DNA of 40,594 bases, taken from positions 15,645-56,238 of the forward strand of contig JAKCDU010000025.1 in the NCBI GenBank assembly GCA_021838445.1. The letters are read 5' to 3'. The notes under the pieces are model-generated. The model saw only the letters and a program-made list of their open reading frames with translations. It was not told the origin of the DNA and made no database searches. The translations under genes were made by a program, and so were the position numbers. Below, in pieces: positions 4,784 to 40,594 of this stretch (position 1 is the first letter of the stretch; each line of letters begins with the position of its first letter). The stretch comes from Actinomycetes bacterium. Its GTDB lineage: Bacteria; Actinomycetota; Acidimicrobiia; Acidimicrobiales; Palsa-688.

Positions 4784-5698
4784 ATGCCAAGCGTTTCAGA
4801 TGCGGCCGGCTCGCCGGCCTCCGGCTGGCCGACGGCAGGGGTCATCGACACCCTGATCGGCTTTCCGACCGACCCTGGGCGCACCTACGCCGCTATCAGA
4901 CGGTCGCTTCGCGACACCGAGTCCCGGGAGCATTTTCAGATGCCCGCCGAGTACATGTTCCACGACGTGCCGGCCCAGCACGACATGGACGTGGATGTCG
5001 GTATCGCCTCCACCCTGGCGGAGATGGACACCTACGGTGTCGCCATCGGCTTGGTCAGCCTTTCGGGTAATCCGCAGCTCGTGGCCCGAGCGCTGGAGCG
5101 TCATCCGGACCGGTTCGTGGCGAGCTGGTCGTTCGATCCCAACGAAGGTATGGCGGGGGTCCGTCGCCTGGTCGAGGCCCACGAGGTGCACGGCCTCAAG
5201 GCCGCCTCGTTCTTCCCTCACGGCAACACTCCCCAGGTGGCCATCGACGACCCTCTGGCCTACGTGTACTACGCCAAATGTGTGGAGCTGGACATCCCCG
5301 TCTTCGTCACCGCCGGGATCCCAGGCCCGCGGGTTCCCTTCCGCTCCCAGCACGTCGAGAAGCTGGATCAGGTCATGTACGACTTCCCGGAGCTGGTGGT
5401 GGTCATGCGGCACGGAGCCGAACCCTGGACCGACCTCGCCGTCAAGTTGATGGTCAAGTGGCCCAACCTGTACTACTCGACCAGCGCCTTCGCTCCTCGG
5501 TACTATCCGCAGGCCATCGTCGATTACGCCAACAGCCGGGGTGCCTCCAAGATCCTCTACGCCGGCTACTACCCGATGGGACTGACCCTTCAACGGATCT
5601 TCTCGGAGCTGCCACAGGTGCCGCTCGAGGACCACGTCTGGCCCCAGTTCCTCAGGGAGAACGCCGCCAAGGTACTCAAGCTCGAGGGGGTGGCATGA
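4784..5698 (+). CDS. amidohydrolase_2-family protein with degenerate metal site
   Basis: A 304-residue TIM-barrel protein of the COG2159 metal-dependent hydrolase/decarboxylase family, shorter than its five paralogues in the window (373-427). The fold is recognisable: ALERHPDRFVASWSFDP, then VFVTAGIPGPRVPF, LVVVMRHGAEPWTDL and LLYAGYYPMG. However, the usual N-terminal D-x-H ligands read IDTLIGFP, and the usual terminal SDYPH reads AGYYPMG, so the H and D metal ligands are absent. It may be a non-metal enzyme, a non-catalytic partner, or a hydrolase with altered chemistry. A good ribosome binding site (GAGGGG) precedes ATG 4784. It is the first gene of a tightly packed operon; its stop overlaps the next start by 4 bp. 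Confidence 0.85.
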   Translation: MPSVSDAAGSPASGWPTAGVIDTLIGFPTDPGRTYAAIRRSLRDTESREHFQMPAEYMFHDVPAQHDMDVDVGIASTLAEMDTYGVAIGLVSLSGNPQLVARALERHPDRFVASWSFDPNEGMAGVRRLVEAHEVHGLKAASFFPHGNTPQVAIDDPLAYVYYAKCVELDIPVFVTAGIPGPRVPFRSQHVEKLDQVMYDFPELVVVMRHGAEPWTDLAVKLMVKWPNLYYSTSAFAPRYYPQAIVDYANSRGASKILYAGYYPMGLTLQRIFSELPQVPLEDHVWPQFLRENAAKVLKLEGVA

Positions 5699-11691: not shown

Positions 11692-11707
11692 TTGACATCG
11701 ATAGCGG
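11692..11707. promoter_or_regulatory. operator palindrome S5 (TTGACATC-GATAGCGG)
   Basis: Matches the consensus at 14 of 16 positions. It lies 49 bp upstream of the minus-strand start at 11643 and about 106 bp upstream of the plus-strand start at 11813. Confidence 0.6.
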
Positions 11708-15179: not shown

Positions 15180-16196
15180 ATGAAAGAACTCCGACTGGGG
15201 CTCTTCGCCCCCTTCGTCGACGGCGGGCTCGACCGGTTCGTCGAGCTGGTACGACTGGCTGATTCGCTCGGCTTCTACGCCGTCTGGAGCGGTGAGGCCT
15301 ACGGCACCGACGCGGTGGTCCCGATGGCCTACGCGGCGGCTGTCACCGAACGGGTCCACCTCGGGACCTCGATCATGCAGATGCCGGCGCGGACGCCGGC
15401 CATGACGGCCATGACCGCGGCGACCCTTGACCTCGTGTCCAACGGCAGGTTCCTTCTCGGTCTCGGTATGTCCGGACCCCAGGTGGTGGAAGGTTGGCAC
15501 GGCCAGCCGTTCCGCAAACCGCTGGCCACCACCAGGGAATACGTGGCCATCGTCCGCAAGGCCCTCGAACGCCGGGAGCCGCTGGCCCACGATGGTGAGA
15601 TCTATCAGCTTCCATTTACCGGCCCAGGAGCGACCGGGGTGGGCAAGGCGCTCAAGATCATGGGTCGCCCCCGCCCCGATATACCCATCTACATCGCCGC
15701 CATCGGTCCGAGGAACGTCCGGCTCGCGGCCGAGATCGGCGACGGGTTCCTGCCACACATCTTCAGCCCCACCCGATGGAAGAGTGCCTTCGGGGAGCCG
15801 TTGGCCGGCGTCGATCTGGAGAGATTCGATGTCGCGCCGACCGTGTTCGTCTCGATAGGTAGCGACATCAACGAGTGCCGCGACGCCGTTCGTCCCCATC
15901 TGGCGTTGTACATCGGCGGCATGGGGGCGCGGGGACAGAACTTCTACAACGATCTCATGCGTCGCTACGGCTATGAAGCCGCGGCCATCGAGATCCAGGA
16001 CCTCTTCCTCGCCGGTAAGGCAAAGGATGCGGCCGCCGCCATCCCCGACGAGATGGTGGACGACGTGGCCCTGGTCGGTCCGAAGGAGCGCATCGCCGAC
16101 CAGCTCGGCGCGTGGAGGGAGTCGCCGGTTCGTACCCTGAATCTGTCCGACGTCGACCCCGCCGAGATGCGGACGCTGGCCGAGCTAGTCCACTGA
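15180..16196 (+). CDS. LLM-class F420/flavin-dependent oxidoreductase
   Basis: A 338-residue luciferase-like TIM barrel. It begins with ELRLGLFAPFVDGGLDRFVE and has ERVHLGTSIMQMPARTPAMT, NGRFLLGLGMSGPQVVEGWHG, PDIPIYIAAIGPRNVRLAAE and IGDGFLPH, the standard order of the family. Members are F420-dependent dehydrogenases or FMN monooxygenases; in actinobacteria F420 is common, but the cofactor cannot be decided here. ATG 15180 has CGGGAGA upstream. Its last 12 bp overlap the convergent TetR gene. An incomplete copy of the same family lies at 27191-27568. Confidence 0.93.
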   Translation: MKELRLGLFAPFVDGGLDRFVELVRLADSLGFYAVWSGEAYGTDAVVPMAYAAAVTERVHLGTSIMQMPARTPAMTAMTAATLDLVSNGRFLLGLGMSGPQVVEGWHGQPFRKPLATTREYVAIVRKALERREPLAHDGEIYQLPFTGPGATGVGKALKIMGRPRPDIPIYIAAIGPRNVRLAAEIGDGFLPHIFSPTRWKSAFGEPLAGVDLERFDVAPTVFVSIGSDINECRDAVRPHLALYIGGMGARGQNFYNDLMRRYGYEAAAIEIQDLFLAGKAKDAAAAIPDEMVDDVALVGPKERIADQLGAWRESPVRTLNLSDVDPAEMRTLAELVH

Positions 16197-20141: not shown

Positions 20142-20441
20142 ATGCTCCAGGGTGACCAGCACCGTGACCTCGTGGCCAACGGGGTGGCCCATTTTGCCGG
20201 ACCGCCGTTGATCGAGCTCGACGGCGACCGGGCCACGGCCATCAACTACTCGTTGATCATGCGCCGGGAGGGCGATCGCTTCTACCTGTGGCGGGTCAGC
20301 GCAGTGCGCTGGGACCTCGAGCGTGAGGCAGGCCGTTGGCGTGTGGCGTGCCGGACCAACCGGCTGCTCGATGCCTCCGGTGCCGGAAGCGAGATGTTCG
20401 GTGCCACCCTGGCGGAGCTCTTCGAGGGGGCTCGGTCATGA
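20142..20441 (+). CDS. SnoaL/NTF2-like protein, N-terminally short
   Basis: A 99-residue protein carrying the second half of an NTF2-like fold: HFAGPPLIELDGDRATAINYS, FYLWRVSAVRWDLEREAGRW and RVACRTNRLLDA. Relatives with this signature usually have about 50-60 more residues at the N-terminus, including the first helices. In-frame codons upstream of ATG 20142 (GEDEPYRGGRAVER) look like the lost part but have no start before running into the EthD gene, so the N-terminus seems truncated by fusion of the two genes. Its stop overlaps the SDR start (ATGA). It may be a nonfunctional remnant or a minimal domain. Confidence 0.7.
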   Translation: MLQGDQHRDLVANGVAHFAGPPLIELDGDRATAINYSLIMRREGDRFYLWRVSAVRWDLEREAGRWRVACRTNRLLDASGAGSEMFGATLAELFEGARS

Positions 20442-21223
20442 CCGCGGGTCGGCTCGATGGCAAGGTCGCGATCATCACGGGGGCGAGCACCGGCCTCGGA
20501 CCGGTGATGGGTGCGATGTTCGTCCGTGAGGGAGCCAAGGTGCTCCTCGCAGCCCGTCGCGAGGATCTCGTCAAGGATGCGGCCGCGGCCGCCGGGGGCG
20601 GCGCTATCGCCATGCGCGCCGATGTCACCGACGAGGCGGACGTCGCATCGATGGTCTCGCGTGCCGTGGAGGAGTTCGGGCACGTGGACATCATGTGCAA
20701 CAACGCCGCAGCTCCGGGGATCGACAGGTGGGTCTGGGAGCAGACCCTCGAGAACTGGAATGCCACCATCGCCATCGACGTGACCGCGGCGATGCTCTGT
20801 ACCAGGGAGGTGCTCAACCAGTCGATGCTCGCCCGGCGCTCCGGGGTGATCCTCAACTTCTCCTCTACCGCGGCTTACCCGGGGATGGTACGCAAGACCC
20901 ACTACGTGACGAGCAAGGCCTCGCTGCGGGCGTTCACCAAGGCGGTCGCGCTGGAGGTGGGTCCCTACGGCATCCGGTGCAACTGCGTAGTGCCGGGCAG
21001 CATCGACACCGATCTCTGGCGGTCCTGGGTCAAAAGGACGGCGGACGAGCAGGGAGTCGATTACGAGGTCCAGCGTGAGCGTCTCCTCCAAGGCGTCGCC
21101 CTTCGAGACATCTCCTCGACCGCGGACGTCGCCCATCTGGCCCTCTTCCTGGCCAGCGACGAGAGCCGTACGATCACCGGACAGTCGATCCCGGTGGACG
21201 CCGGCGGGTACATGCAGGGCTAG
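20438..21223 (+). CDS. short-chain dehydrogenase/reductase (SDR)
   Basis: A 261-residue Rossmann-fold NAD(P)(H) oxidoreductase of the classical SDR family. TGASTGLG (residues 14-21) is the cofactor loop, NNA (88-90) the stabilising motif, SS at about 142-143 the catalytic serine and YVTSK (Y156, K160) the catalytic pair; the C-terminus has LASDESRTITGQSIPVDAGG. A 3-hydroxyacyl-CoA or ring-alcohol dehydrogenase role fits the context but is inference. It ends the 19379-21223 operon, 5 bp from the convergent acyl-CoA synthetase. Confidence 0.94.
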   Translation: MTAGRLDGKVAIITGASTGLGPVMGAMFVREGAKVLLAARREDLVKDAAAAAGGGAIAMRADVTDEADVASMVSRAVEEFGHVDIMCNNAAAPGIDRWVWEQTLENWNATIAIDVTAAMLCTREVLNQSMLARRSGVILNFSSTAAYPGMVRKTHYVTSKASLRAFTKAVALEVGPYGIRCNCVVPGSIDTDLWRSWVKRTADEQGVDYEVQRERLLQGVALRDISSTADVAHLALFLASDESRTITGQSIPVDAGGYMQG

Positions 21224-22744: not shown

Positions 22745-22885
22745 TCACGAGAACCGGTAGGCACCCGGGTCCGGGTGCCTGGTCATGCGCCAGAAGTCCA
22801 CCAGCCGCCGAGGGCTGGGGACATGCACGCGGCCATCAGGACCTTTGTACCAGGAGTTGGACCAAGGCCGCTGCTCGTCGGGCCC
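22745..22885 (-). pseudogene. C-terminal fragment of a flavin-containing (Baeyer-Villiger-type) monooxygenase
   Basis: The minus frame reads DEQRPWSNSWYKGPDGRV and then LVDFWRMTRHPDPGAYRFS before its stop at 22745. The SWYK...GR...W..TR pattern is the typical C-terminal end of Baeyer-Villiger-type monooxygenases. Only about 45 residues remain; the body is gone and operator S12 with the promoter of the divergent amidohydrolase lies just beyond. A perfect 10-bp inverted repeat lies inside it. The identification rests on a short motif. Confidence 0.6.
22759..22780. repeat. 10-bp inverted repeat
   Basis: AGGCACCCGG and CCGGGTGCCT are separated by only 2 bases, inside the monooxygenase remnant and 28-49 bp upstream of GTG 22731. 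It could be an operator or a fold in the leader of the acyl-CoA synthetase mRNA; no further support is seen. Confidence 0.5.
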
Positions 22886-22934
22886 ACCGGCCCTCCGGGT
22901 CGACGGCGGGGAGCTCCGGGGTCGGAAAGCAAGA

Positions 22935-22963
22935 TTGACGTCGACGTCAACTTGGTGTAGCCT
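22935..22963 (+). promoter_or_regulatory. promoter with perfect operator S12
   Basis: TTGACGTC-GACGTCAA (22935-22950) is a perfect palindrome matching all 16 consensus positions. TTGACG (22935-22940) is a near-consensus -35; TAGCCT (22958-22963) lies 17 bp downstream as -10. It drives the amidohydrolase at 23042 with an mRNA leader of about 75 bases. This is the clearest case of the operator overlapping a promoter. Confidence 0.82.
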
Positions 22964-23041
22964 GGATATCGGACCAGGAAGGCTCGATTCGGTGTTCGAG
23001 CACTGGAGATCATCTGAAGCAGAAGCAGACGGAGGAGTCCC

Positions 23042-24226
23042 ATGCAGCACCTCGATTACCCGGTGTTCGATGCCGACAACCACATGTACGAACAGGCCGA
23101 CGCCTTCACCCGCTATCTGCCCGACGAGTACAAGCACGTGATCAGGATCGCCAACGTGAATGGTCGCGACAAGGTCGTGATCAAGGGCACGATCTCCGAG
23201 TACATCCCCAATCCCACCTTCAGTGTGGTGGCTAGGCCCGGCGCTCAGGAGGAGTACTTCAAGCACGGGAATCCCGAGGGCAAGAGCCGTCGGGAGATCC
23301 TCGGCGAGCCCATGCGTTCACCCGACGCCTTCTTCCGCCCCGAGCCCCGCCTGAAGCTCATGGACGAGCAGGGCGTCGACCGGGCCATCATGTGGCCGAC
23401 CCTCGCAAGCGTGCTCGAGGAGCGTCTGGCCAAGGACCCGGAGGCCACCCATGCCATCATCCACGCGTTCAACCAGTGGATGTACGAGGAATGGACCTTC
23501 AACTACGAGGATCGCATCTTCCCCACCCCGGTCGTCACGCTTCCCATCCTCGATGAGGCGCTCAAGGAACTCGACTGGATCGCCGAACGCGGTGCCAAGA
23601 TCATCCTCATCCGGCCCGCCCCGGTGCCCAACCTGAAGGGCTACCGTTCCTTCGCCCTGCCCGAGTACGACCCCTTCTGGGCCAAGGTCCAAGAGTACGA
23701 CCTCACCGTCGGCATGCACTCGTCCGACGACGGGATGACCCGCTACTACAACCAGTGGGAGGGGCACTACGACGAGATGCTCCCGTTCGCCAATCAGACG
23801 GCCTTCCAGGACGTGCAGCACCTGATGAGCCGGGGCATATTCGACGCCATGTGCTCGACGGTCACTCACGGGATGCTCTCCCGCTTCCCGGACTTGCGGG
23901 TCCTCCCCGTCGAGAACGGCAGCAGCTGGGTCATCCCGCTCATCGAGGCCCTCGGCCACTCCTACGCCAAGCAGCCACGGCTGTACCTGGAGGACCCGGT
24001 CGAGGCTCTCAAGCGCAACGTCTGGATTCACCCCTTCTTCGAAGAGGATCCCGTCGGTCTCATCAAGACCATCGGTCCGGACAAGGTCGTCTTCGGCTCG
24101 GACTATCCCCATCCCGAAGGTATGGCCAATCCGATCTCCTACGCCAACGAGCTCAGGGACCTTCCCGAGGAGGACATCCGGCGGATCATGGGAGGCAACC
24201 TGGCCGCCGCCCTCAAGGTGGCCTGA
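23042..24226 (+). CDS. amidohydrolase_2-family metal-dependent hydrolase
   Basis: A 394-residue COG2159 TIM-barrel enzyme. VFDADNHMYEQADAFTRY provides the N-terminal metal ligands; VGMHSSDDG is the mid-barrel His; VLPVENGSSWVIPLIEAL and VFGSDYPHPEGMANP complete the family pattern. It is close in style to the paralogue at 29202-30410 (DADSHYWEPSDAFTRYRD there), so these two form a subgroup. GGAGGAG lies 5-6 bases before ATG 23042. It is controlled by the S12 promoter. The stop runs directly into the remnant of a liv permease. Substrate unknown. Confidence 0.93.
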   Translation: MQHLDYPVFDADNHMYEQADAFTRYLPDEYKHVIRIANVNGRDKVVIKGTISEYIPNPTFSVVARPGAQEEYFKHGNPEGKSRREILGEPMRSPDAFFRPEPRLKLMDEQGVDRAIMWPTLASVLEERLAKDPEATHAIIHAFNQWMYEEWTFNYEDRIFPTPVVTLPILDEALKELDWIAERGAKIILIRPAPVPNLKGYRSFALPEYDPFWAKVQEYDLTVGMHSSDDGMTRYYNQWEGHYDEMLPFANQTAFQDVQHLMSRGIFDAMCSTVTHGMLSRFPDLRVLPVENGSSWVIPLIEALGHSYAKQPRLYLEDPVEALKRNVWIHPFFEEDPVGLIKTIGPDKVVFGSDYPHPEGMANPISYANELRDLPEEDIRRIMGGNLAAALKVA

Positions 24227-24713
24227 AGGCCGGAGCTGTTTCCGGTGGGCTGTACGCCGCCCTGGCTCTCGCTCTGGTCGTCACTTACCGCAGCAGCGGG
24301 GTTCTCAACTTCGCAACGGCCACCATGTCGTTGCTGGGCGCCTGATGTACGCCTACTTCCGGCAGGGCAAGCTGTTGGTGCCCCTGCCATTCCTGCCGAA
24401 GACGGTCGACTTGGGGACCAGTCTCTCCTTCTGGCCGGCGGCGATCATCTCGATCGCGATATGTGCCGCGGTCGGTCTGCTCCTGTACGTGGTGGTGTTC
24501 CGTCCGCTGCGGGCCGCACCTCCGGTAGCCAAAGCGGTCGTAGCCCTCGTCGAGGAACACGTGGCCTTGGCGCTCGAGGTGGCGGACCGGGCGATGGTAC
24601 TGGTCCATGGTCAGGTCTCCCTCGATCGAACGGCAGCCGAACTTCGCGCTGACACCGCACTGCTCGAGGCCGCCTACTTCGGGGACGGCCCAAAGCCGCG
24701 TGACGAGCGTTGA
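24223..24713 (+). pseudogene. fused remnant of a liv ABC-transporter operon (livH start joined to livF end)
   Basis: Directly after the amidohydrolase a frame reads LKAGAVSGGLYAALALALVV, then TYRSSGVLNFATATMSLLGA and stops at about 24345; this is the N-terminal membrane segment of a LivH permease. In a second frame from 24345 the permease continues MYAYFRQGKLLVPLPFLP... to VVVFRPLRAAPPVAKAV, after which the same frame switches without a break to VALVEEHVALALEVADRAMV and AELRADTALLEAAYFGDG, the C-terminus of a LivF ATPase. So a frameshift inside livH is followed by a deletion that removed the rest of livH and most of livM, livG and livF. An intact fused importer is at 38258. Confidence 0.82.
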
Positions 24714-24829
24714 CCATCTCGGAGCCGGGTCGTTCGGGCGGAGGACCTCGACGGAGCCCCGGACTGCCGGGATCCGATCATGATGGTGAGTAAGGTGAAA
24801 TGTCCCGGCTGTCTGCGAAGGAGAGGCGA

Positions 24830-25951
24830 ATGACCGAGAGCCGTCCGCAGCGTCTGATCTCCGCCGATGATCACATGGACCTGCCCCAGGATCGGGTCAA
24901 GGCATTCCTCCAGTCCAGACATCACGCCAGTTACGACGCGGCTGTCGCCCAGGTAGAGGCGGAGCTGCGGGGACGTAACAACGTCGAGGTGAACCGCCGG
25001 TGGCGGGAGCAGCAGAGCTTTCCGGCGTCCGAGGGGAAGAGCTTCGGTGGCAACGAGAGGCACCTGGCGTTCGGGCGGTCCGGGCACACCGATCCGGTCG
25101 AGCGACTGAAGGACATGGACGCGGACGGCGTGGATGTCTCATCGAGCTACTGTGAGGTGAGCGCCTTCCGCTACCTGTACCTGGTCAAGGACGGGGCCGC
25201 GGAGGCGACGCGTGCGTTCAACACGGCACTCGCCGAGTTCGCCTCGGTCTCCCCGGAACGGCTGGTCGTTTCCTACCAGGTCCCCATCCACGACATCGAC
25301 GTGGCAGTCAACGAGGTGCGGTGGGCGGCGGCCAACGGCTGCAAGTCGCTACAGCTGCCGGTCTTCCCGAACGAGCTGGGCCTGCCCGACTACTGGGACA
25401 CCCGCTACGACCCGCTGTGGGCCGCCATTCAGGACGCCGACCTGCCGGTGTGCCTGCACATAGGGCTCAAGCTGAGCATGGAGGATGTCGCCAAGCGTGA
25501 TCCGACTCCGCAGCGGGCCATCTTCACGTCGATGGTCCCGATGGCCACCGCCGAAGCGCTCGGCATGTGGCTCCTCACCGGTATCCTCGAGCGTCACCCT
25601 CACCTCAAGGTCGTCTTCGTCGAGCCCGGCATCGGCTGGGTGACATGGTGGCTCACGTTCGTCGATGACATGGCTCTTCGCCAAGGCTACGAGTTCCCGA
25701 GCCTCAAACACGAGCCGAGCTTCTACTTCCGTCGCAACCTTCACCTCACGTTCATCGATGAGCCCAATGTGGTCCGCCAGGCCCATGAATGCCTCGGTAT
25801 CGGCAACGTGATGTGGTCCTCCGACTACCCTCACCCGGTCTCGAGCTGGCCGAACTCGCGAGCGACCGTAGAACGCGTCTTCGCGGGCGTGGCCGACGAC
25901 GACCGCGACTTGGTCTGCTACGCAAACGCGACTCGGGTCTGGAACCTGTAG
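24830..25951 (+). CDS. amidohydrolase_2-family metal-dependent hydrolase
   Basis: A 373-residue COG2159 enzyme. Metal-site elements are LISADDHMDLPQDRVKAF, VCLHIGLKLSM, KVVFVEPGIGWVTWWLTFVD and MWSSDYPHPVSSWPNS. The ISADDHMDLP opening and the WWLTFVDDMALRQ helix set it apart from the 23042/29202 subgroup. AAGGAGAGGCG precedes ATG 24830; an upstream in-frame start at 24800 lacks such a site. The 110 bp before it hold no copy of the 16-bp palindrome, so it may be expressed differently from its neighbours. Substrate unknown. Confidence 0.92.
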   Translation: MTESRPQRLISADDHMDLPQDRVKAFLQSRHHASYDAAVAQVEAELRGRNNVEVNRRWREQQSFPASEGKSFGGNERHLAFGRSGHTDPVERLKDMDADGVDVSSSYCEVSAFRYLYLVKDGAAEATRAFNTALAEFASVSPERLVVSYQVPIHDIDVAVNEVRWAAANGCKSLQLPVFPNELGLPDYWDTRYDPLWAAIQDADLPVCLHIGLKLSMEDVAKRDPTPQRAIFTSMVPMATAEALGMWLLTGILERHPHLKVVFVEPGIGWVTWWLTFVDDMALRQGYEFPSLKHEPSFYFRRNLHLTFIDEPNVVRQAHECLGIGNVMWSSDYPHPVSSWPNSRATVERVFAGVADDDRDLVCYANATRVWNL

Positions 25952-26001
25952 TCACGTCGTCTCCACCGACGGGCTCGACCCCGACGAGATGAGCGGTCCG
26001 G

Positions 26002-27054
26002 CTAACCAGCGCCGAGGCGCTCTTCGAGCAGGCCCAGAACGTCCAGATCGACGATGGCCTGGGTGGCACAGAGCATGCCGCGACGACCGGTCTCGAGCGG
26101 CTGCCACTGGGATCCCATGGCCGCGGTCGTCGCCGCCGAGATCCACGAGTACACGGCGAAGAGGCGGTACTGGTCCTCCGCAGTCCGCTGACCCAGGTCG
26201 ATACCGCTGCTCGCCAATCCGGCGCGGTATCGGGAGATCAGCGCCGCTTCGTCGGCGCGCCGCGCGTCCGGGGGCAGGGAGTTGCACAGGAAATAGGAGA
26301 CGTCGCGCATCCCTGGGGCCCGACTGGCGACCGCCCAGTCGAAGAACCCCGTCAGGTCGCCATCAACGAAGAGATTGCCGACGTGGGTGTCGCCGTGGAT
26401 GAGCGTGTGGTCGCCTTCATTCCACAGCGCGGCGATCTCCCGGTACCGCGATATGTAGAGCTCGCCCACCTGACGGACGGCGGGTGGCGTCTCGTCGGCG
26501 AACTGGTCGAGAGCAGATCGCACGATGGCTCCCATGGTCACCATGCGTTGCTCCCGGTTGCGCCCGCGCTCGGCTCCGAGTACCTGGCTGCCCAGCCAGG
26601 GAAGGTCGTGCTCCCAGTAGGCTGCGTGCAAAGTGGCCAGCGCATCGATCAGGGACGCCGCCAGGTCCGAGATGTCGGGGTCGATCGGGTTGGGGAAGCG
26701 ACAACTGGTGGCGCCCAGGTCCTCGAGCACCATCACGAACGACCCGTCGGTCTCGTCGTAGGACGAGTACCACACTCGGGGGACGCGGACGGGGACCTCA
26801 TCGCCGACGGCGGCGTAGAAGCGGGCCTCGGAGACACCCATGCCGACCTTGCGGACGAACTCTCGCTGCTCGGCGACGAAGGGCTGCAGTTTGACGAACA
26901 GCGTCTCAGGTACTGAGCCGTCGGAGTCCAGACGGATCAACGCCCGCCCGGTAGTGCCTGAATGGGCATCCACCACTTCTACAGAGGCGACGTCAGTGTC
27001 CAGCACCTGGCTGAGCCAGTCCGGCGTGAGGTCCTCGACCGAAAATGGAATCAT
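26002..27054 (-). CDS. phosphotransferase of the APH/choline-kinase family
   Basis: A 350-residue kinase-like protein. The N-lobe has TLFVKLQPF with the ATP-binding lysine (about K55), then SFVMVLEDLGA as hinge. The catalytic loop LIHGDTHVGNLF (residues 218-229) and the metal-binding FFDWAVAS (D239) are intact. In actinobacterial CoA clusters such proteins often sit beside ACAD genes and are thought to phosphorylate a hydroxyl-bearing intermediate; a drug-resistance role is unlikely from context. ATG 27054 (MIPFSVEDLTPDWL) fits the family start; longer versions read through operator S13. It is an intact relative of the remnant at 194-862. Confidence 0.92.
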   Translation of the reverse strand: MIPFSVEDLTPDWLSQVLDTDVASVEVVDAHSGTTGRALIRLDSDGSVPETLFVKLQPFVAEQREFVRKVGMGVSEARFYAAVGDEVPVRVPRVWYSSYDETDGSFVMVLEDLGATSCRFPNPIDPDISDLAASLIDALATLHAAYWEHDLPWLGSQVLGAERGRNREQRMVTMGAIVRSALDQFADETPPAVRQVGELYISRYREIAALWNEGDHTLIHGDTHVGNLFVDGDLTGFFDWAVASRAPGMRDVSYFLCNSLPPDARRADEAALISRYRAGLASSGIDLGQRTAEDQYRLFAVYSWISAATTAAMGSQWQPLETGRRGMLCATQAIVDLDVLGLLEERLGAG

Positions 27055-27083
27055 CGAAGGCACCCGCCAATGATGACCGTAAT

Positions 27084-27099
27084 CCGATATCGACGTCAA
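27084..27099 (-). promoter_or_regulatory. promoter/operator S13 (minus: TTGACGTC-GATATCGG)
   Basis: Matches the consensus at 15 of 16 positions. Read on the minus strand, TTGACG (27099-27094) is a -35 with a weak TCATCA 17 bp downstream, pointing at the phosphotransferase start at 27054. A minus-strand frame upstream (TPDRIATFISRLVAQGQIAQ) stops inside it. Confidence 0.68.
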
Positions 27100-27190
27100 C
27101 TCTGGGCGATCTGACCCTGTGCGACGAGGCGGGAGATGAAGGTGGCGATGCGGTCCGGCGTCGCTGGCTTCGGGGCTGGACGGGGAGCTG

Positions 27191-27568
27191 ATGGGCCACA
27201 CCTGGGGCATGTTCGGGTCACCGGTGCCGGAGATTCTTCTCCAACTGGCTCTCGCAATGGCGAAGGCCGCAGGCATACTCGACGGAAATAGGGACAAGGT
27301 GTTCCCCGCTCTGTCCAAAGTCGTGGAAGGCGAAGTGCCGGTCGACTACTACCAGAGCGAGGACATGGTCATCATCGGGACGCCCGACGAGTGCCTGAGG
27401 AAGATCCTTCGATACGAGTCCGTCGGAGTCGACCAGCTGCTCTGCTACGTACAGTTCGGGGACCTGCCCCACGACGCGGTGATGCGGGATCTGGAGCTCC
27501 TGGCCGAGGAGGTCATGCCGAAACTCGAGGAGAGGGGGCATCGAGTGACCGATACCGCGGCAATCTGA
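27191..27568 (+). pseudogene. C-terminal fragment of an LLM-class oxidoreductase
   Basis: The frame reads GHTWGMFGSPVPEILLQL, then DYYQSEDMVIIGTPDECLRK and VGVDQLLCYVQFGDLPHDAV, ending DLELLAEEVMPKLEERGH. This is the last third of a luciferase-like TIM-barrel oxidoreductase (the GTPDEC...GVDQLLCYVQFG segment and the final helix are typical). The N-terminal two-thirds, including the flavin-binding strands, are missing: upstream lies only about 90 bp before operator S13. It could be expressed as a 125-residue piece, but it is unlikely to be active. Confidence 0.75.
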
Positions 27569-27592
27569 TGGATCTGATCCCATTCACCGTTG

Positions 27593-27709
27593 GACATGAC
27601 CGGGACGACCCAGGACATTGCCTGGACGATGCTCTTTCTGGCCGCCGACACCTCACGGTTCATGACCGGTCAGGGGCTACGCCCCAGCGGCGGCGTCCTC
27701 ATGATTTGA
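27593..27709 (+). pseudogene. C-terminal fragment of a short-chain dehydrogenase
   Basis: A frame reads DMTGTTQDIAWTMLFLAAD, then TSRFMTGQGLRPSGGVLMI and stops at 27709. This is the last 38 residues of an SDR (the FLAADTSRFMTGQ...GG signature). Nothing of the Rossmann fold remains. The following 130 bp up to operator S14 contain no gene I can support; a short frame ending AAAGEALVASGGADPVR (stop near 27795) may be one more scrap. Confidence 0.65.
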
Positions 27710-27855
27710 CGGGGTTGCGTGCCGGACGCCTCTCCGGTGTTCGCCGCGGCGGGGGAGGCCCTGGTGGCGTCCGGGGGCGCCGACCCGGTTCGGTAGGCCG
27801 TATCTGGCCGGACTGGAGCGGAAGCCTTGCAGACCACTGTGACAGGTGCCATGAT

Positions 27856-27871
27856 TCGATATCGCTGTCGA
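27856..27871. promoter_or_regulatory. operator palindrome S14 (TCGATATC-GCTGTCGA)
   Basis: Matches the consensus at 15 of 16 positions and directly follows a -10-like CATGAT on the plus strand; the substrate-binding protein starts 18 bp further on at 27889. Confidence 0.7.
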
Positions 27872-27888
27872 ATAGGGGGGTTGGGGAA

Positions 27889-29121
27889 TTGTCTCACTCG
27901 AAGAGGATGGTCGCTCTGGGGGCAGCTGCGATCGCGGTAGTCGCCGGATGCAGCAGTTCCGCCAAACCGGGCACCGGAGCCGGTGCCGCCGCCACCTCCG
28001 GCAAGACCTACACGGTTGGCATCCTGACCGATCTCACTGGTCCCGGCTCGAACACGGGCCAGACCACTCTGCAGGGCATCAAGGCCGGGATCGGGCTGGC
28101 CGCCAAGCAGGGCTACAACATCAAGTACGTCGTCGCCGATACCGGAACCTCCTTGAGCCAGACCCTGACCGCGGCCCAGACGCTCGTCCAACAGGATCAC
28201 GTGTTCGCCGTCATTCAGATATCCGTGGTCGGCTTCGCAGCGGCGCACTACCTGACCTCCTCCGGCGTACCGGTGATCGGCGGTGACGTGGACGGCCCGG
28301 AATGGCTCACCGCCCGCAACATGTTCTCCATATTCGGCTACGCCGATTACACGAAGGTGCAGACGACGCTCGGGGAGATCTTCAAGCAGCTCGGTGCGAC
28401 CACCTTTGGCGGTCTGGCGTACAGCATCGAGCCCTCCTCGTACGACAATGCCAAGGGGGCAGCGGTATCGGCGAGTCTGGCCGGCCTCGAGGACGGGTAT
28501 CTCAATACGCAGGTCCCTCTCGGTTCGACCAACATGGCACCCATCGCGCTGGCGATGAAGAGCGCGGGCGTGGACGCCGTGTACCCCGCAGTGACGTCGC
28601 AGACCTCCTTCGCGCTGATAAACACCCTGCGCCAGGAAGGAGTCAACTTCAAGGCCCTTCTGCCCACCGGCTACGGCGGTGACCTCACCGGAGGCGGACC
28701 CGGGGCGTCCCAAGCGGCGCAAGGGGTGTACTTCACGTCAGCCTACGAGCCCTTCGAGATGAACACTGCGGCGACGCGGCAGATGGCCGCCGCCCTGAAG
28801 ACCTATGCCGGGTGGACGGGTGACCCGACCCTCAGCGAGTACATGGGCTATCTCTCGATCGATGGACTCGTGAAGGGGCTGCAAGCCGCCGGACCGAATC
28901 CCACGGCCGCGTCGTTCATCAACACCATGTTGGGTATCACGAGCTATTCGGCCGCCGGGCTGTGGGGCGGCCACACCTCATCGTTCGCCCTCTCGGGCCG
29001 GGGATCGGTTTCGGGCGCAGACAACTGCGTGTGGATCACCCAGTACACCGGTACGACTTTCCACCTGGTTCCGAACATGAACCCGATCTGCGGCCAGAAC
29101 GTCCCCGGCAAGAGCGTCTAG
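27889..29121 (+). CDS. ABC-transporter substrate-binding lipoprotein (LivJ-type)
   Basis: A 410-residue periplasmic-binding-type protein, anchored as a lipoprotein. The signal reads SKRMVALGAAAIAVVAG-C (lipobox VVAG-C), followed by a Ser/Gly/Ala linker. The mature part has the type-I fold of branched-chain-amino-acid-like receptors: YTVGILTDLTGPGSNTGQ, VLVQQDHVFAVIQISVVGFA, GVPVIGGDVDGPEWLTA and TFGGLAYSIEPSSYDNAKG. TTG 27889 includes the basic n-region; ATG 27907 is the alternative. No intact permease is adjacent (the next gene is convergent), so it is an orphan receptor that may feed the importer at 38258 or once belonged with the decayed liv operon at 24223. Confidence 0.92.
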   Translation: MSHSKRMVALGAAAIAVVAGCSSSAKPGTGAGAAATSGKTYTVGILTDLTGPGSNTGQTTLQGIKAGIGLAAKQGYNIKYVVADTGTSLSQTLTAAQTLVQQDHVFAVIQISVVGFAAAHYLTSSGVPVIGGDVDGPEWLTARNMFSIFGYADYTKVQTTLGEIFKQLGATTFGGLAYSIEPSSYDNAKGAAVSASLAGLEDGYLNTQVPLGSTNMAPIALAMKSAGVDAVYPAVTSQTSFALINTLRQEGVNFKALLPTGYGGDLTGGGPGASQAAQGVYFTSAYEPFEMNTAATRQMAAALKTYAGWTGDPTLSEYMGYLSIDGLVKGLQAAGPNPTAASFINTMLGITSYSAAGLWGGHTSSFALSGRGSVSGADNCVWITQYTGTTFHLVPNMNPICGQNVPGKSV

Positions 29122-29142
29122 ACGCCTAATAGCCGAGCGCCA

Positions 29143-29158
29143 TCGATATCGATATCGG
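29143..29158. promoter_or_regulatory. operator palindrome S15 between convergent gene ends
   Basis: TCGATATC-GATATCGG matches the consensus at 15 of 16 positions, yet it lies between the 3' ends of two convergent genes (29121 and 29202). On the plus strand TACTCT (29174-29179) and GGAGGTG with an ATG at 29188 follow, opening a 20-codon frame antisense to the amidohydrolase end. Confidence 0.62.
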
Positions 29159-36692: not shown

Positions 36693-36721
36693 TTGACATC
36701 GATATCGGACCATCGTAGTTT
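36693..36721 (+). promoter_or_regulatory. promoter with operator S17
   Basis: TTGACATC-GATATCGG (36693-36708) matches 15 of 16 positions. TTGACA is a consensus -35 and TAGTTT (36716-36721) lies 17 bp on. It points at the binding lipoprotein at 36840, giving a leader of about 110 bases. On the other strand the frame of the truncated hydratase runs through it. Confidence 0.8.
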
Positions 36722-36839: not shown

Positions 36840-38105
36840 ATGAAGTCATCCAGGCGCATCGTGCTGCGGGGGGTCGCCGCTGCCGCGGCGGTCCTCGCCG
36901 TGAGCGCGTGTTCCAGCTCCAGCAAGAGCTCGACGGCTACGACGGCGGCGACGCCGACGTCCGCGTCGGGCTCGCAGACGACGTCGGCCTCGTCCACCCC
37001 GACGGGGACACCGATCAAGGTTGGGGTCGTATGCAGTTGCACCGGTCCACTCGCCTCGACCGGGGTCGACACGGTCCCGGTTCTGAAGGCGTGGGCCAGT
37101 AGCGTCAACGATGCGGGCGGCATCAACGGGCATCCGATCGACCTGGTGGTCAAGGACGACGCCAGCACGCCCGGTACCTCCCAGGCGGCCGCCGATAGTC
37201 TCATCCAGTCCGATCACGTGATCGCCATCGTGGACGACACCAACGACGACGAGACATGGGCCGCCCAGGTCAAGTCAGCCGGTGTGCCTGTCGTCGGGCT
37301 CAACTCGTCCGAGACCCCGTTCTTCACGAGCTCTGATTTCTACCCCGAGGCCCAGACCGAGGACTCTCTTTTCGCCTCGATCCTCGATTCGGCCAAGTCC
37401 GCCGGGGCGACCAACCTGGGTCTCCTCTACTGCGCCGAAGCGGTCCAGTGCCAGGAAGGCATCGCTCCGCTCAAGCAGGCCGGACAGAAGCTCGGGCTGC
37501 CGGTCACCTTCTCGGCCGAGGTGGCGGCCACCGCTCCCAACTACACGGCCCAGTGCCTGGCCGCCCAGCAGGCCCACGTGACGGCGCTGTTCATCGCCGA
37601 CATCGGCGCCGTGGCCCAGAAGGTCGCCCAGGACTGCCTCACCCAGGGCTATCACCCGATCTACGTCCTCGACGGCCAGACGATCTCCCAGTCGTACGCC
37701 TCCAGCCCCGGTTTGAAGGACAATCTGGTGGGCCCGACCCCGAATGTGCCGTTCTTCGCCAACACCCCGGCGGTCCAGGAGATGAACGCCGCGATCGACA
37801 AGTACCAGCCTGGCCTTCGCCAGGACGCGGTGAAGTACAACGAGTACGCGATGGGCGCCTGGGTCTCCGGAAAGCTGTTCGAGAAGGGCGCCCAGCTCGG
37901 TGGTCTCGGGGCCAACGGGTCCACGCCCAGCTCGGCCCAGCTGGTCAACGGCCTCAACATGATCAACAACGAGACCCTCGGGGGCCTGGCGCCGCCGCTC
38001 ACCTTCACCGCCGGACAGCCCCACCCGGTGGACTGCTGGTTCAACTTTGCCATCAAGAACGGGTCCTACCAGCTTCCCAACGGCACATCCACGACCTGCC
38101 AGTAG
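36840..38105 (+). CDS. ABC-transporter substrate-binding lipoprotein (LivJ-type)
   Basis: A 421-residue lipoprotein. The signal is SSRRIVLRGVAAAAAVLAVSA-C (lipobox AVSA-C), followed by a long Ser/Thr linker (about residues 24-57). The binding domain has KVGVVCSCTGPLASTG, INGHPIDLVVKDDASTPG, GVPVVGLNSSETPFFTS and NLGLLYCAEAVQCQEGIAP. This is the branched-chain-amino-acid receptor fold, but these receptors also bind aromatic or small organic acids; the ligand is unknown. GAGGAGGG precedes ATG 36840. It is followed, after a hairpin, by the fused LivHMG importer. Confidence 0.94.
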   Translation: MKSSRRIVLRGVAAAAAVLAVSACSSSSKSSTATTAATPTSASGSQTTSASSTPTGTPIKVGVVCSCTGPLASTGVDTVPVLKAWASSVNDAGGINGHPIDLVVKDDASTPGTSQAAADSLIQSDHVIAIVDDTNDDETWAAQVKSAGVPVVGLNSSETPFFTSSDFYPEAQTEDSLFASILDSAKSAGATNLGLLYCAEAVQCQEGIAPLKQAGQKLGLPVTFSAEVAATAPNYTAQCLAAQQAHVTALFIADIGAVAQKVAQDCLTQGYHPIYVLDGQTISQSYASSPGLKDNLVGPTPNVPFFANTPAVQEMNAAIDKYQPGLRQDAVKYNEYAMGAWVSGKLFEKGAQLGGLGANGSTPSSAQLVNGLNMINNETLGGLAPPLTFTAGQPHPVDCWFNFAIKNGSYQLPNGTSTTCQ

Positions 38106-38145
38106 GTACGACCTCCTTCCCCGAACCCACCTCGCTTGTCACCTG

Positions 38146-38179
38146 GAGGAGGAGGCCTCGTTCCAGAGGCCTCCTCCTC
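38146..38179 (+). terminator. strong hairpin between binding protein and importer
   Basis: GAGGAGGAGGCCTC (38146-38159) and its exact complement GAGGCCTCCTCCTC (38166-38179) form a 14-bp stem with a 6-base loop, 41 bp after the stop of the lipoprotein. There is no T-run. It may be an actinobacterial-type terminator or, since the importer follows on the same strand, a partial terminator or mRNA stabiliser that makes more binding protein than permease. Confidence 0.75.
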
Positions 38180-38257
38180 ATCCTCATCGTTCAACTCTTG
38201 CGGAATCGACACAAAGATCGCTCACCGGTGCCTTCGGTGGTCCCGGCAGGGGGTAGC

Positions 38258-40594
38258 GTGCACAACTTTCTACCGTTCATCGTCATTGGATTGGCCACCG
38301 GAGCCGTCTACGGCTTGGCGGGTATGGGACTGGTCCTGACCTACAAGACCTCCGGGATATTCAACTTCGGCTACGGGGCGATAGCGGCGCTCGACGTCTT
38401 CCTCTTCTACTTCCTCCACACGGAGCACAAGATGCCGTGGGCGCTGGCCGCCGCCATATGCCTCCTCGTCTTCGCCCCCCTGCTGGGTCTGCTGCTGGAG
38501 CTTCTGGCGCGCTCACTTCACAGCTCCAGCGAGATGGTGAAGGTGGTGGCCACCGTCGGCCTCATTCTCATGGTGCAGGGCCTCAGCCTTCTGTGGCATC
38601 CGACCAATCCCCCCACGCTCGACCACTTCCTCTCCCAGTCGACGGTCAGACTGCTCGGTGTCAACGTCACTTATGAGCAGATCATCCTCTTCGTGTTCTC
38701 CGTGGTCGCGGCGGGGGTCCTGTACTGGTTCTTCCAGTCCGTCCGTCTCGGAGTGGTCATGCGTGGCGTCGTCGACAACGCCGAGTTGGTGTCCATGAGC
38801 GGTGACGACCCCGTGCTGGTTCGGCGCTGGGCGTGGATCATCGGCAGCGTCTTCTCCTCCGTGGCGGGCCTCATGCTGGCGCCCGCGCTCCAGATGGACG
38901 GCGTCACGCTCACGACGGCGGTCTTCGCCGCGTTCGGAGCGGCGGCCATCGGACTCTTCACCAACCTGCCGCTCACATTCGCCGGAGGGCTGATCGTCGG
39001 CATCGCCCAGGCCCTCGTGGACAAGTACTCGGCGACCATTTCGTGGATAGGGGGCCTGCCGCCGGCGCTGCCTTTCGTCATCCTCTTCCTGGTGCTCGTG
39101 CTCCTGCCCCCGAGGCTGCTCGCTCAGAGGCGGCTGGTGGCGACCATGGAGGTCCGGCGGGCCTACCACGCCCCGACCCGGATCCGCCTGGCCGCCGGAG
39201 CGGTCGCCCTGGCGCTGCTCGCCCTCATCCCGGTTCTCGACGCGACCAGGCTGAGCCTGTGGTCGGGGGCCCTGATCGACATGACCCTCTTCCTGTCGCT
39301 CGGCCTGCTCGTGCGCCGTTCAGGGCAGATATCGCTCTGCCATCTCGCTTTCGCCGCAGTTGGAGCTGCCGCCTTCGGACACTTCGCCACCACCTTCGGA
39401 ATACCGTGGCTGCTCTCGTTGGTCCTCGCCGGTCTGGTGGCGGTGCCGGTCGGGGCGTTGATCGCCATTCCTGCCGTCCGGGTGTCGGGCGTGTTCCTCG
39501 CTCTGCTCACACTCGGCTTCGGGATACTTGTGGAGCAGGTGTTCTACACCCGGAGCTTCATGTTCGGGCAGTCGTCTCTGGGGATCGCCTCCCCGCGACC
39601 GGACATCTCCATCGGCGGGTGGAACATGTCGAGCGACAAGGGCTTCTACTACCTGCTCCTCCTCATCACGGCCCTCGCGGTGGCTGTGGTGCTCTGGATC
39701 GCCAACGGCCGCCTCGGGCGACTGCTGGAAGCGATGGCCGGGTCACCTCTCGCCCTCGAGACGCACGGGGCCACTACGAGCGTGCTCAAGGTCATCGTGT
39801 TCTGCGTGACCAGCGCCATGGCATCGGTGGCCGGTGCCCTCACCGCCATGCTGTACCACTACGGAGTGGGCAACTACTTCGTGTCCTTCAACTCCCTGAC
39901 ACTGGTCGCTCTGGTCGTCATCGTGACGGTGGGGGAGCCCTGGTACGCCGTCATCGGTGCCGCCCTCTACTCCGTCATTCCCGGGTACATCAGCGGTCAG
40001 ACGACGAGCACGGTGCTCGAGCTCCTATTCGGTGTGGGAGCGGCGCTGGCCGCGTTTGGCACCCGCGGAGGCGGAGCGCCGCCGGCGGTGCGCGACCTCC
40101 TCGACCGCCTCGGAGGCCGCCGCCCGGCTGTCGAGGCTCCGAAAGACCTCACACCGGAGGAGATGGCGACGCGGACGGCCCGCCGGAGAGAGCTCGAAGG
40201 CACCGCCACCGGCACCAGTGTCGGCACCCGCTCCGGTCTCGTCGTGGGTGACCTCTCGGTCCAGTTCGGCGGTGTCAAGGCGGTCAATGGCGTCACCCTG
40301 GAGGCTCCGGTCGGGTTGATCACCGGCCTGGTGGGACCCAACGGGGCGGGCAAGACCACCACCTTCAACGCCTGCAGCGGTCTCAACCGCCCGACAAGTG
40401 GGACCATCCTGCTGCACGGCTCGGACGTGACCCGCGACGGCCCGGCCGAACGGGCGCGCCGCGGCCTCGGGCGGACCTTCCAGCGCACCGAGCTGTTCGA
40501 CAGTCTCACCGTCCGCCAGAACGTGGCCATGGGCCGCGAGGCCGCCCTCGCCGGCGCCAACCCGCTGTCGCAGCTGGTGGGTTCCCGCCACGGC
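38258..40594 (+). CDS. branched-chain-amino-acid-type ABC importer, LivH-LivM-LivG triple fusion (3' end outside)
   Basis: One frame stays open for 779 codons to the window end. Residues 1 to about 290 are a LivH-type permease (HNFLPFIVIGLATGAVYGLA, SGIFNFGYGAIAALDVFLF, many membrane helices); about 300-590 are a LivM-type permease (LIDMTLFLSLGLLVRRSGQI, GVFLALLTLGFGILVEQVFY); about 590-655 form a charged linker (PKDLTPEEMATRTARRREL); from about 658 follows a LivG ATPase (LVVGDLSVQFGGVKAVNGV, Walker A GPNGAGKTTTFNACSGL, RTFQRTELFDSLTVRQNVAM). GTG 38258 is preceded by AGGGGGT. These parts are normally separate genes. LivF is not seen in the window. The transport substrate is unknown. Confidence 0.9.
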   Translation, partial: MHNFLPFIVIGLATGAVYGLAGMGLVLTYKTSGIFNFGYGAIAALDVFLFYFLHTEHKMPWALAAAICLLVFAPLLGLLLELLARSLHSSSEMVKVVATVGLILMVQGLSLLWHPTNPPTLDHFLSQSTVRLLGVNVTYEQIILFVFSVVAAGVLYWFFQSVRLGVVMRGVVDNAELVSMSGDDPVLVRRWAWIIGSVFSSVAGLMLAPALQMDGVTLTTAVFAAFGAAAIGLFTNLPLTFAGGLIVGIAQALVDKYSATISWIGGLPPALPFVILFLVLVLLPPRLLAQRRLVATMEVRRAYHAPTRIRLAAGAVALALLALIPVLDATRLSLWSGALIDMTLFLSLGLLVRRSGQISLCHLAFAAVGAAAFGHFATTFGIPWLLSLVLAGLVAVPVGALIAIPAVRVSGVFLALLTLGFGILVEQVFYTRSFMFGQSSLGIASPRPDISIGGWNMSSDKGFYYLLLLITALAVAVVLWIANGRLGRLLEAMAGSPLALETHGATTSVLKVIVFCVTSAMASVAGALTAMLYHYGVGNYFVSFNSLTLVALVVIVTVGEPWYAVIGAALYSVIPGYISGQTTSTVLELLFGVGAALAAFGTRGGGAPPAVRDLLDRLGGRRPAVEAPKDLTPEEMATRTARRRELEGTATGTSVGTRSGLVVGDLSVQFGGVKAVNGVTLEAPVGLITGLVGPNGAGKTTTFNACSGLNRPTSGTILLHGSDVTRDGPAERARRGLGRTFQRTELFDSLTVRQNVAMGREAALAGANPLSQLVGSRHG

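Follow-up and report, generated by a model that had tools for sequence, protein, structure and literature searches.

A probable recent pseudogene of a fused livHMG-livF importer operon in an acidimicrobial catabolic gene cluster

The occurrence of pieces of LivH and LivF side by side in a short stretch of actinobacterial DNA raises the question whether such a locus encodes a reduced, fused importer or simply represents the remains of a former importer operon. The locus considered here, hereafter called the scar, is about 490 bases long and occurs in a window of 40,594 nucleotides, i.e., the whole stretch of DNA that was analysed, belonging to a draft genome of 117 contigs and 3,986,990 bases, whose completeness is rated at 96.25% and in which the scar stretch is single-copy as assembled. 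Translation of the frame at 24229 yields 38 residues of LivH type up to the TGA 24343-24345, and an ATG at 24345 opens the next frame over for 122 residues, until 24713. Residues 1 to ~64 of this second frame are of LivH type and residues ~64 to ~114 correspond to the C-terminus of LivF. This succession of a LivH N-terminus, a frameshift, the middle of LivH and an in-frame LivF C-terminus had been proposed in a sequence-only reading of the DNA and is confirmed by the reading frames, by the NCBIfam LivF model (NF008626) and by the whole-genome matches; the positions then given for the frameshift (24343-24345) and for the junction (about 24534-24540) were right. The LivF model aligns with residues 66-113 of the 122-residue frame (E 6e-4, model positions 190-236 of 237), and the whole-genome matches of the same frame reach E 7.6e-20 to LivH in the relative G001 and 7.3e-16 to LivF in the relative G028. 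In these whole-genome comparisons, the similarity of the scar to LivH and LivF is far above chance. The features discussed below are collected in Table 1.

Table 1. Coordinates of the scar and of the neighbouring features in the window.
Feature	Position	Strand	Remarks
Amidohydro_2 gene, intact	23042..24226	+	stop TGA 24224-24226 adjoins livH, truncated at its 5' end
livH remnant, N-terminal piece, 37 aligned residues	24229..24345	+	without start and first 8-10 codons; frameshift stop at its end
livH remnant, second piece, next frame, 62-64 residues	24345..24536	+	matches LivH of relatives
Deletion junction	24534..24542	+	Ala-Val codons align with both proteins of the relatives
livF remnant, last ~50 codons and short tail	24537..24713	+	stop close to the native position
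Luciferase-like monooxygenase, C-terminal stub	27191..27568	+	further remnant near the scar
Short-chain dehydrogenase, C-terminal stub	27605..27703	+	E 6e-5, residues 261-293 of 295, to the window's dehydrogenase 20336-21223
Substrate-binding protein, Peripla_BP_6, intact	27889..29121	+	differs from the receptor type at intact scar-type operons
Other liv operon: receptor, then fused livHMG, intact architecture	36840-40594		runs off the contig end, appears to continue on C67

The relatives that serve for comparison include members of the same genus as the source (G001 and G002), of the same family (G020 and G006) and of the same order (G028). In G001, G016, G020 and G028, a single open frame of 926-954 codons comprises livH, livM and livG, and livF comes next. 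The scar retains, in the same order, homologous pieces of this actinobacterial liv-type importer operon (branched-chain amino acid family, HAAT), made of a fused livHMG and a separate livF, but it differs by the lack of ~3 kb, of the livH start and of the receptor gene, and by its frameshift. Among 41 genomes, G001, G016, G020 and G028 and, more weakly, G002 and G029 carry a LivH and a LivF match of the 122-residue frame on a common contig, separated by ~3 kb, and in each of them the best LivF match of the genome sits in the operon of the LivH match, despite the occurrence of other LivF-like matches. Counting against the pseudogene reading preferred below, LivH and LivF match on different contigs in G003 and G039, the G003 contig ending within the operon. 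Eighteen of the 397 genomes of the order, the source genome included, were matched at E <= 1e-13, and no other match listed at this threshold spans both halves of the scar. Of 20 loci, chosen for matching a scar half, 18 contain homologues of every piece in a single operon, in order and on one strand, the exceptions being G248, devoid of the second livH piece, and G003, devoid of the livF piece. Identities of the scar pieces to the intact operons amount to 39-71% for LivH and 50-72% for LivF. A receptor gene of the type found in G001 stands immediately upstream on the same strand at eight of the 20 loci, downstream on the same strand at four, and in another orientation at two, the remaining six being without a receptor in the DNA examined. 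Since the placement of the receptor differs among intact operons, the receptor need not have been lost at the left edge of the scar.

Compared with the intact relatives, the scar exhibits three inactivating lesions, a 5' truncation, a one-base frameshift and a deletion of ~3 kb, as observed in one draft assembly of one strain. The codons which meet at the junction are 2921-3083 bases apart in 16 of 18 operons, and 3220 and 3223 bases apart in the two G002 operons. At the frameshift site, the same 16 operons carry one base more than the scar, and the G002 pair has a longer insertion. The Ala-Val codons at 24534-24539 align with both proteins, so that the breakpoint is resolved only to a few bases, and a short sequence shared at these codons is a possible cause of the deletion. 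Between 22700 and 28000, the only repeats found were short and imperfect, with no long repeats or inverted ends to explain the deletion, and a promoter/terminator scan of 22765-28000 returned one promoter-like and two terminator-like sequences (0.6 and 1.7, respectively, in shuffled sequences), none of them at the scar. The earlier proposal that a single deletion had removed about three genes is supported as regards one ~3 kb internal deletion, the rest of the draft genome containing nothing close to the lost parts; it has to be amended for the gene count, because livH, livM and livG are fused and two genes, not four, were crossed. Judged from the relatives, the deletion spans one fused livHMG gene, from mid-livH onward, and most of livF.

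At the left edge of the scar, the amidohydrolase gene is intact, and the similarity to its relatives extends through its last codons. The LivH homology begins at 24226-24232, at or a few bases past the amidohydrolase stop, where the LivH of G001 is already 8-10 codons in, and the LivH frame contains no ATG, GTG or TTG from 23851, inside the amidohydrolase gene, to 24325. A homology that begins 8-10 codons in, without a start codon in frame, amounts to a second lesion at this edge, and the adjacency of the amidohydrolase and livH is best read as a rearrangement joint.

The missing parts were searched for in the source genome. With LivH of G001 as a query, the scar itself is recovered at 57% and 56%, and everything else remains at or below 33%; the LivM-LivG part gives 75 matches, the best by E-value at 44% and the most similar longer piece at 49% on contig C67; the G001 operon receptor has a best match of 26%. 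In the absence of close matches, the deleted sequence appears to be gone from the genome, as far as a draft can show. A transfer of the missing segment to another place in the genome was likewise rejected: no close match occurs, and the best candidate, the LivG piece at the end of C67, agrees in all of 42 residues (100% identity) with the terminus of the second liv operon of the window and belongs to that operon.

The loss appears to be recent. Protein identity between the scar and 16 intact operons ranges from 52 to 61% (mean 58%, 146-147 aligned codons), and that of the intact operons among themselves from 48 to 86% (mean 60%, 120 pairs). Out of 30 columns invariant among the intact operons, 29 are kept in the scar and one is altered. 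When the livF piece is run slightly past the native stops, the count is again one of 30, and omitting the intact operons one at a time gives 0-3 for the operon omitted; these invariant-column and identity counts exclude the two G002 operons. With a single invariant column broken, the scar has the look of a young pseudogene, and selection thus acted on the gene until not long ago; one change in ~65 non-synonymous sites means, by inference, that neutral change has not exceeded a few percent. Long neutral decay was considered and rejected: the share of third-position differences is 0.41-0.55 in the scar, inside the range of the intact pairs (0.40-0.70), and becomes 0.41-0.53 and 0.40-0.62, respectively, with livF run past the native stops. 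A tree of the scar-type operons (19 rows, 149 columns) leaves the scar unplaced and not beside the operon of G001, of the same genus, which groups with that of G020 of another genus (95/94). This pairing across genera implies that the family of scar-type operons need not track the species tree.

A functional Liv/HAAT importer requires complete PF02653 permease domains for LivH and LivM, an ABC ATPase domain, the hallmarks of which are Walker A, the signature and Walker B, and a cognate binding protein. At the scar, PF02653 gives a weak score with the 37 residues of the N-terminal livH piece (13.8 bits, for a cut-off of 26.8), and the locus is absent from the 17 permease matches of the source genome. 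Nothing in the 122-residue frame passes any Pfam cut-off, neither a permease nor an ABC ATPase (ABC_tran) domain, LivF being reduced to positions ~190-236 of 237, and no binding protein occurs at the scar. The idea that the fused frame would be a working importer is therefore not supported. An open second half of 122 codons and an in-frame junction do give some appeal to a LivH-LivF mini-importer serving the orphan receptor at 27889. This proposal can nevertheless be set aside almost entirely, since only the last ~50 residues of LivF persist, the frameshift divides a LivH that also lacks a start, and the receptor differs in type and has no liv genes nearby at 18 of 23 loci. Nearly as improbable is that 24345-24713 has been retained to encode a small membrane protein of novel function, its translation depending on the TGATG stop-start overlap behind the livH piece. 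The 122 open codons, the ATG overlapping the frameshift stop and the 29 retained invariant columns would agree with it, but a recent loss accounts for the same facts, the upstream livH piece is devoid of an in-frame start codon (ATG, GTG or TTG) between 23851 and 24325, and the 397 genomes of the order offer no further listed match at E <= 1e-13 across both halves. The more specific version, in which this livH'-livF' protein would act on the other liv importers of the genome, is equally far-fetched.

A more serious competitor, though still an unlikely one, is a mis-assembly or sequencing error that would have joined fragments of a single intact operon, or from two different organisms, while the gene is really whole. 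The division of the draft into 117 contigs, the single occurrence of the junction and the constraint still apparent in the scar speak for an error, and the good conservation would also be compatible with a young assembly error. Yet an error would have to account for three separate lesions inside 490 bases, the other contigs of the genome, whose completeness is rated at 96%, contain nothing close to the missing 3 kb, some 30 other long frames of the window are free of internal stops, so that base errors are infrequent, and further gene stubs lie close by. This decay next door, which affects a monooxygenase and a dehydrogenase, equally counts in favour of a pseudogene. The scar is very probably a recent pseudogene of a fused livHMG-livF operon from which no transporter is made. 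Pseudogenes left by internal deletion are a common kind in bacteria, and the scar is likewise truncated, frameshifted and internally deleted, with nothing different of note, its in-frame junction alone conferring the look of a fusion gene. It is a genuine feature of the assembled sequence and ordinary in kind.

Comparison of the sequence with the relatives shows the lesions themselves; the succession in which they arose, the involvement of shared bases and the rearrangement beside the amidohydrolase are inferred. Starting from an operon with a fused livH-livM-livG gene plus livF, the livH start would have been lost and the livH remnant joined to the end of the amidohydrolase gene, ~3 kb from mid-livH to late livF would have been deleted, perhaps by way of a short sequence common to both ends at the Ala-Val codons, and a single base would have been dropped from the remaining livH. 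The receptor gene of the operon is also missing from the genome as assembled. For annotation purposes, 24345-24713 is best named a pseudogene remnant and not a LivH-LivF fusion. The locus offers a clean, apparently young case of importer loss in a catabolic gene cluster that retains another liv operon, and no title retrieved from the literature on liv pseudogenes, microhomology pseudogenes, fused liv genes and Acidiferrimicrobium concerned it.

The receptor at 27889 had been considered as the former partner of the importer, a suggestion that did not survive comparison: in a BLASTP comparison confined to the receptor of the intact G001 operon, it gives E 0.52. A receptor match occurs at 14 of the 20 operon loci, and in every case the G001 receptor, never that of 27889, was the query with the best score. 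Conversely, 18 of 23 loci of 27889-type receptors, which centre on 23 of the 37 listed places of the family, show no liv permease or ATPase gene within up to 9 kb per side, several of the 23 being truncated by contig ends. The other five (L235, L236, L242, L243 and L247) do hold a liv-like permease or ATPase gene at E <= 1e-8, these genes belonging to other lineages; one of the loci lies in the source genome, on contig C10. The family is expanded, with 12 matches in G002, 11 in G006 and four in the source genome, the 27889 receptor included, and its many receptors may share few importers. The 17 permease matches of the source genome show that other importers exist. Nothing links the 27889 receptor to the scar, to which it should not be assigned.

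A check suggested earlier was to look in relatives for an intact livHMGF downstream of the amidohydrolase. None of 80 loci of amidohydrolase relatives shows a scar-type operon there; the downstream DNA covered amounts to 500 bases or more at 77 of them and to 3000 or more at 68. The relatives at 89-90% identity in G020 and G006 lie in 14-20 kb of examined DNA that is devoid of liv genes. Nine of the 80 loci display some receptor or liv match: L074, L081 and L103 have downstream liv genes of other lineages, L096 has liv genes upstream, L097, from a Frankia, has a divergent scar-type livH upstream (65% over 127 residues), and L038, L054, L085 and L108 have receptor matches only. A link between amidohydrolases and liv genes receives partial support in another form, as a different Amidohydro_2-like gene occurs upstream and on the same strand at five of the 20 scar-type operons (G020, G170, G089, G167 and G271, i.e., L156, L213, L219, L220 and L222), nearest to the window gene 34608 and not of the 23042 type, hinting that this type of enzyme and the importer are linked. 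The amidohydrolase 23042-24226 is nearer to copies from another genus (90% in G020, 89% in G006) than to those of its own genus (71% in G001, 60% in G002), a pattern hinting at horizontal exchange or differential loss.

Including the scar, three remnants occur within 3.5 kb, and two whole genes (24800-25951 and 26002-27054) lie between them. The gene at 24800 has an 81% relative at L224 (G002:C445, 1158-2303), and a liv operon of G002, a distant one, stands ~4.5 kb away from this relative.

The other liv operon of the window shares the gene architecture of the scar-type operon but belongs to a different lineage, with 28% identity between its LivH and the scar-type one of G001. The contig ends together with the window, in livG, where window positions 40469-40594 overlap L250 (G000:C67) 5294-5419 with 42 identical residues, and beyond the overlap C67 contains the rest of livG and a livF at 39% to LivF of G001, so the operon appears, from this overlap, to continue on C67.

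Finally, an operator-like motif, TTGACRTCGATATCG, and a palindrome upstream of the amidohydrolase 23042, TTGACGTCGACGTCAA, recur in the window, e.g., at 11692, 19272, 22935-22950, 27085-27099, 29137-29158 and 36693-36707. There are 25 matches at up to 3 mismatches, for 1.35 expected, and GATATCGA has 11, for 0.63 expected; in the whole genome, all four sites with 0 or 1 mismatch fall inside the window. This distribution suggests a cluster-specific regulator; two putative TetR-type frames, at 16185 (-) and 32226 (+), qualify as candidates solely through their location.
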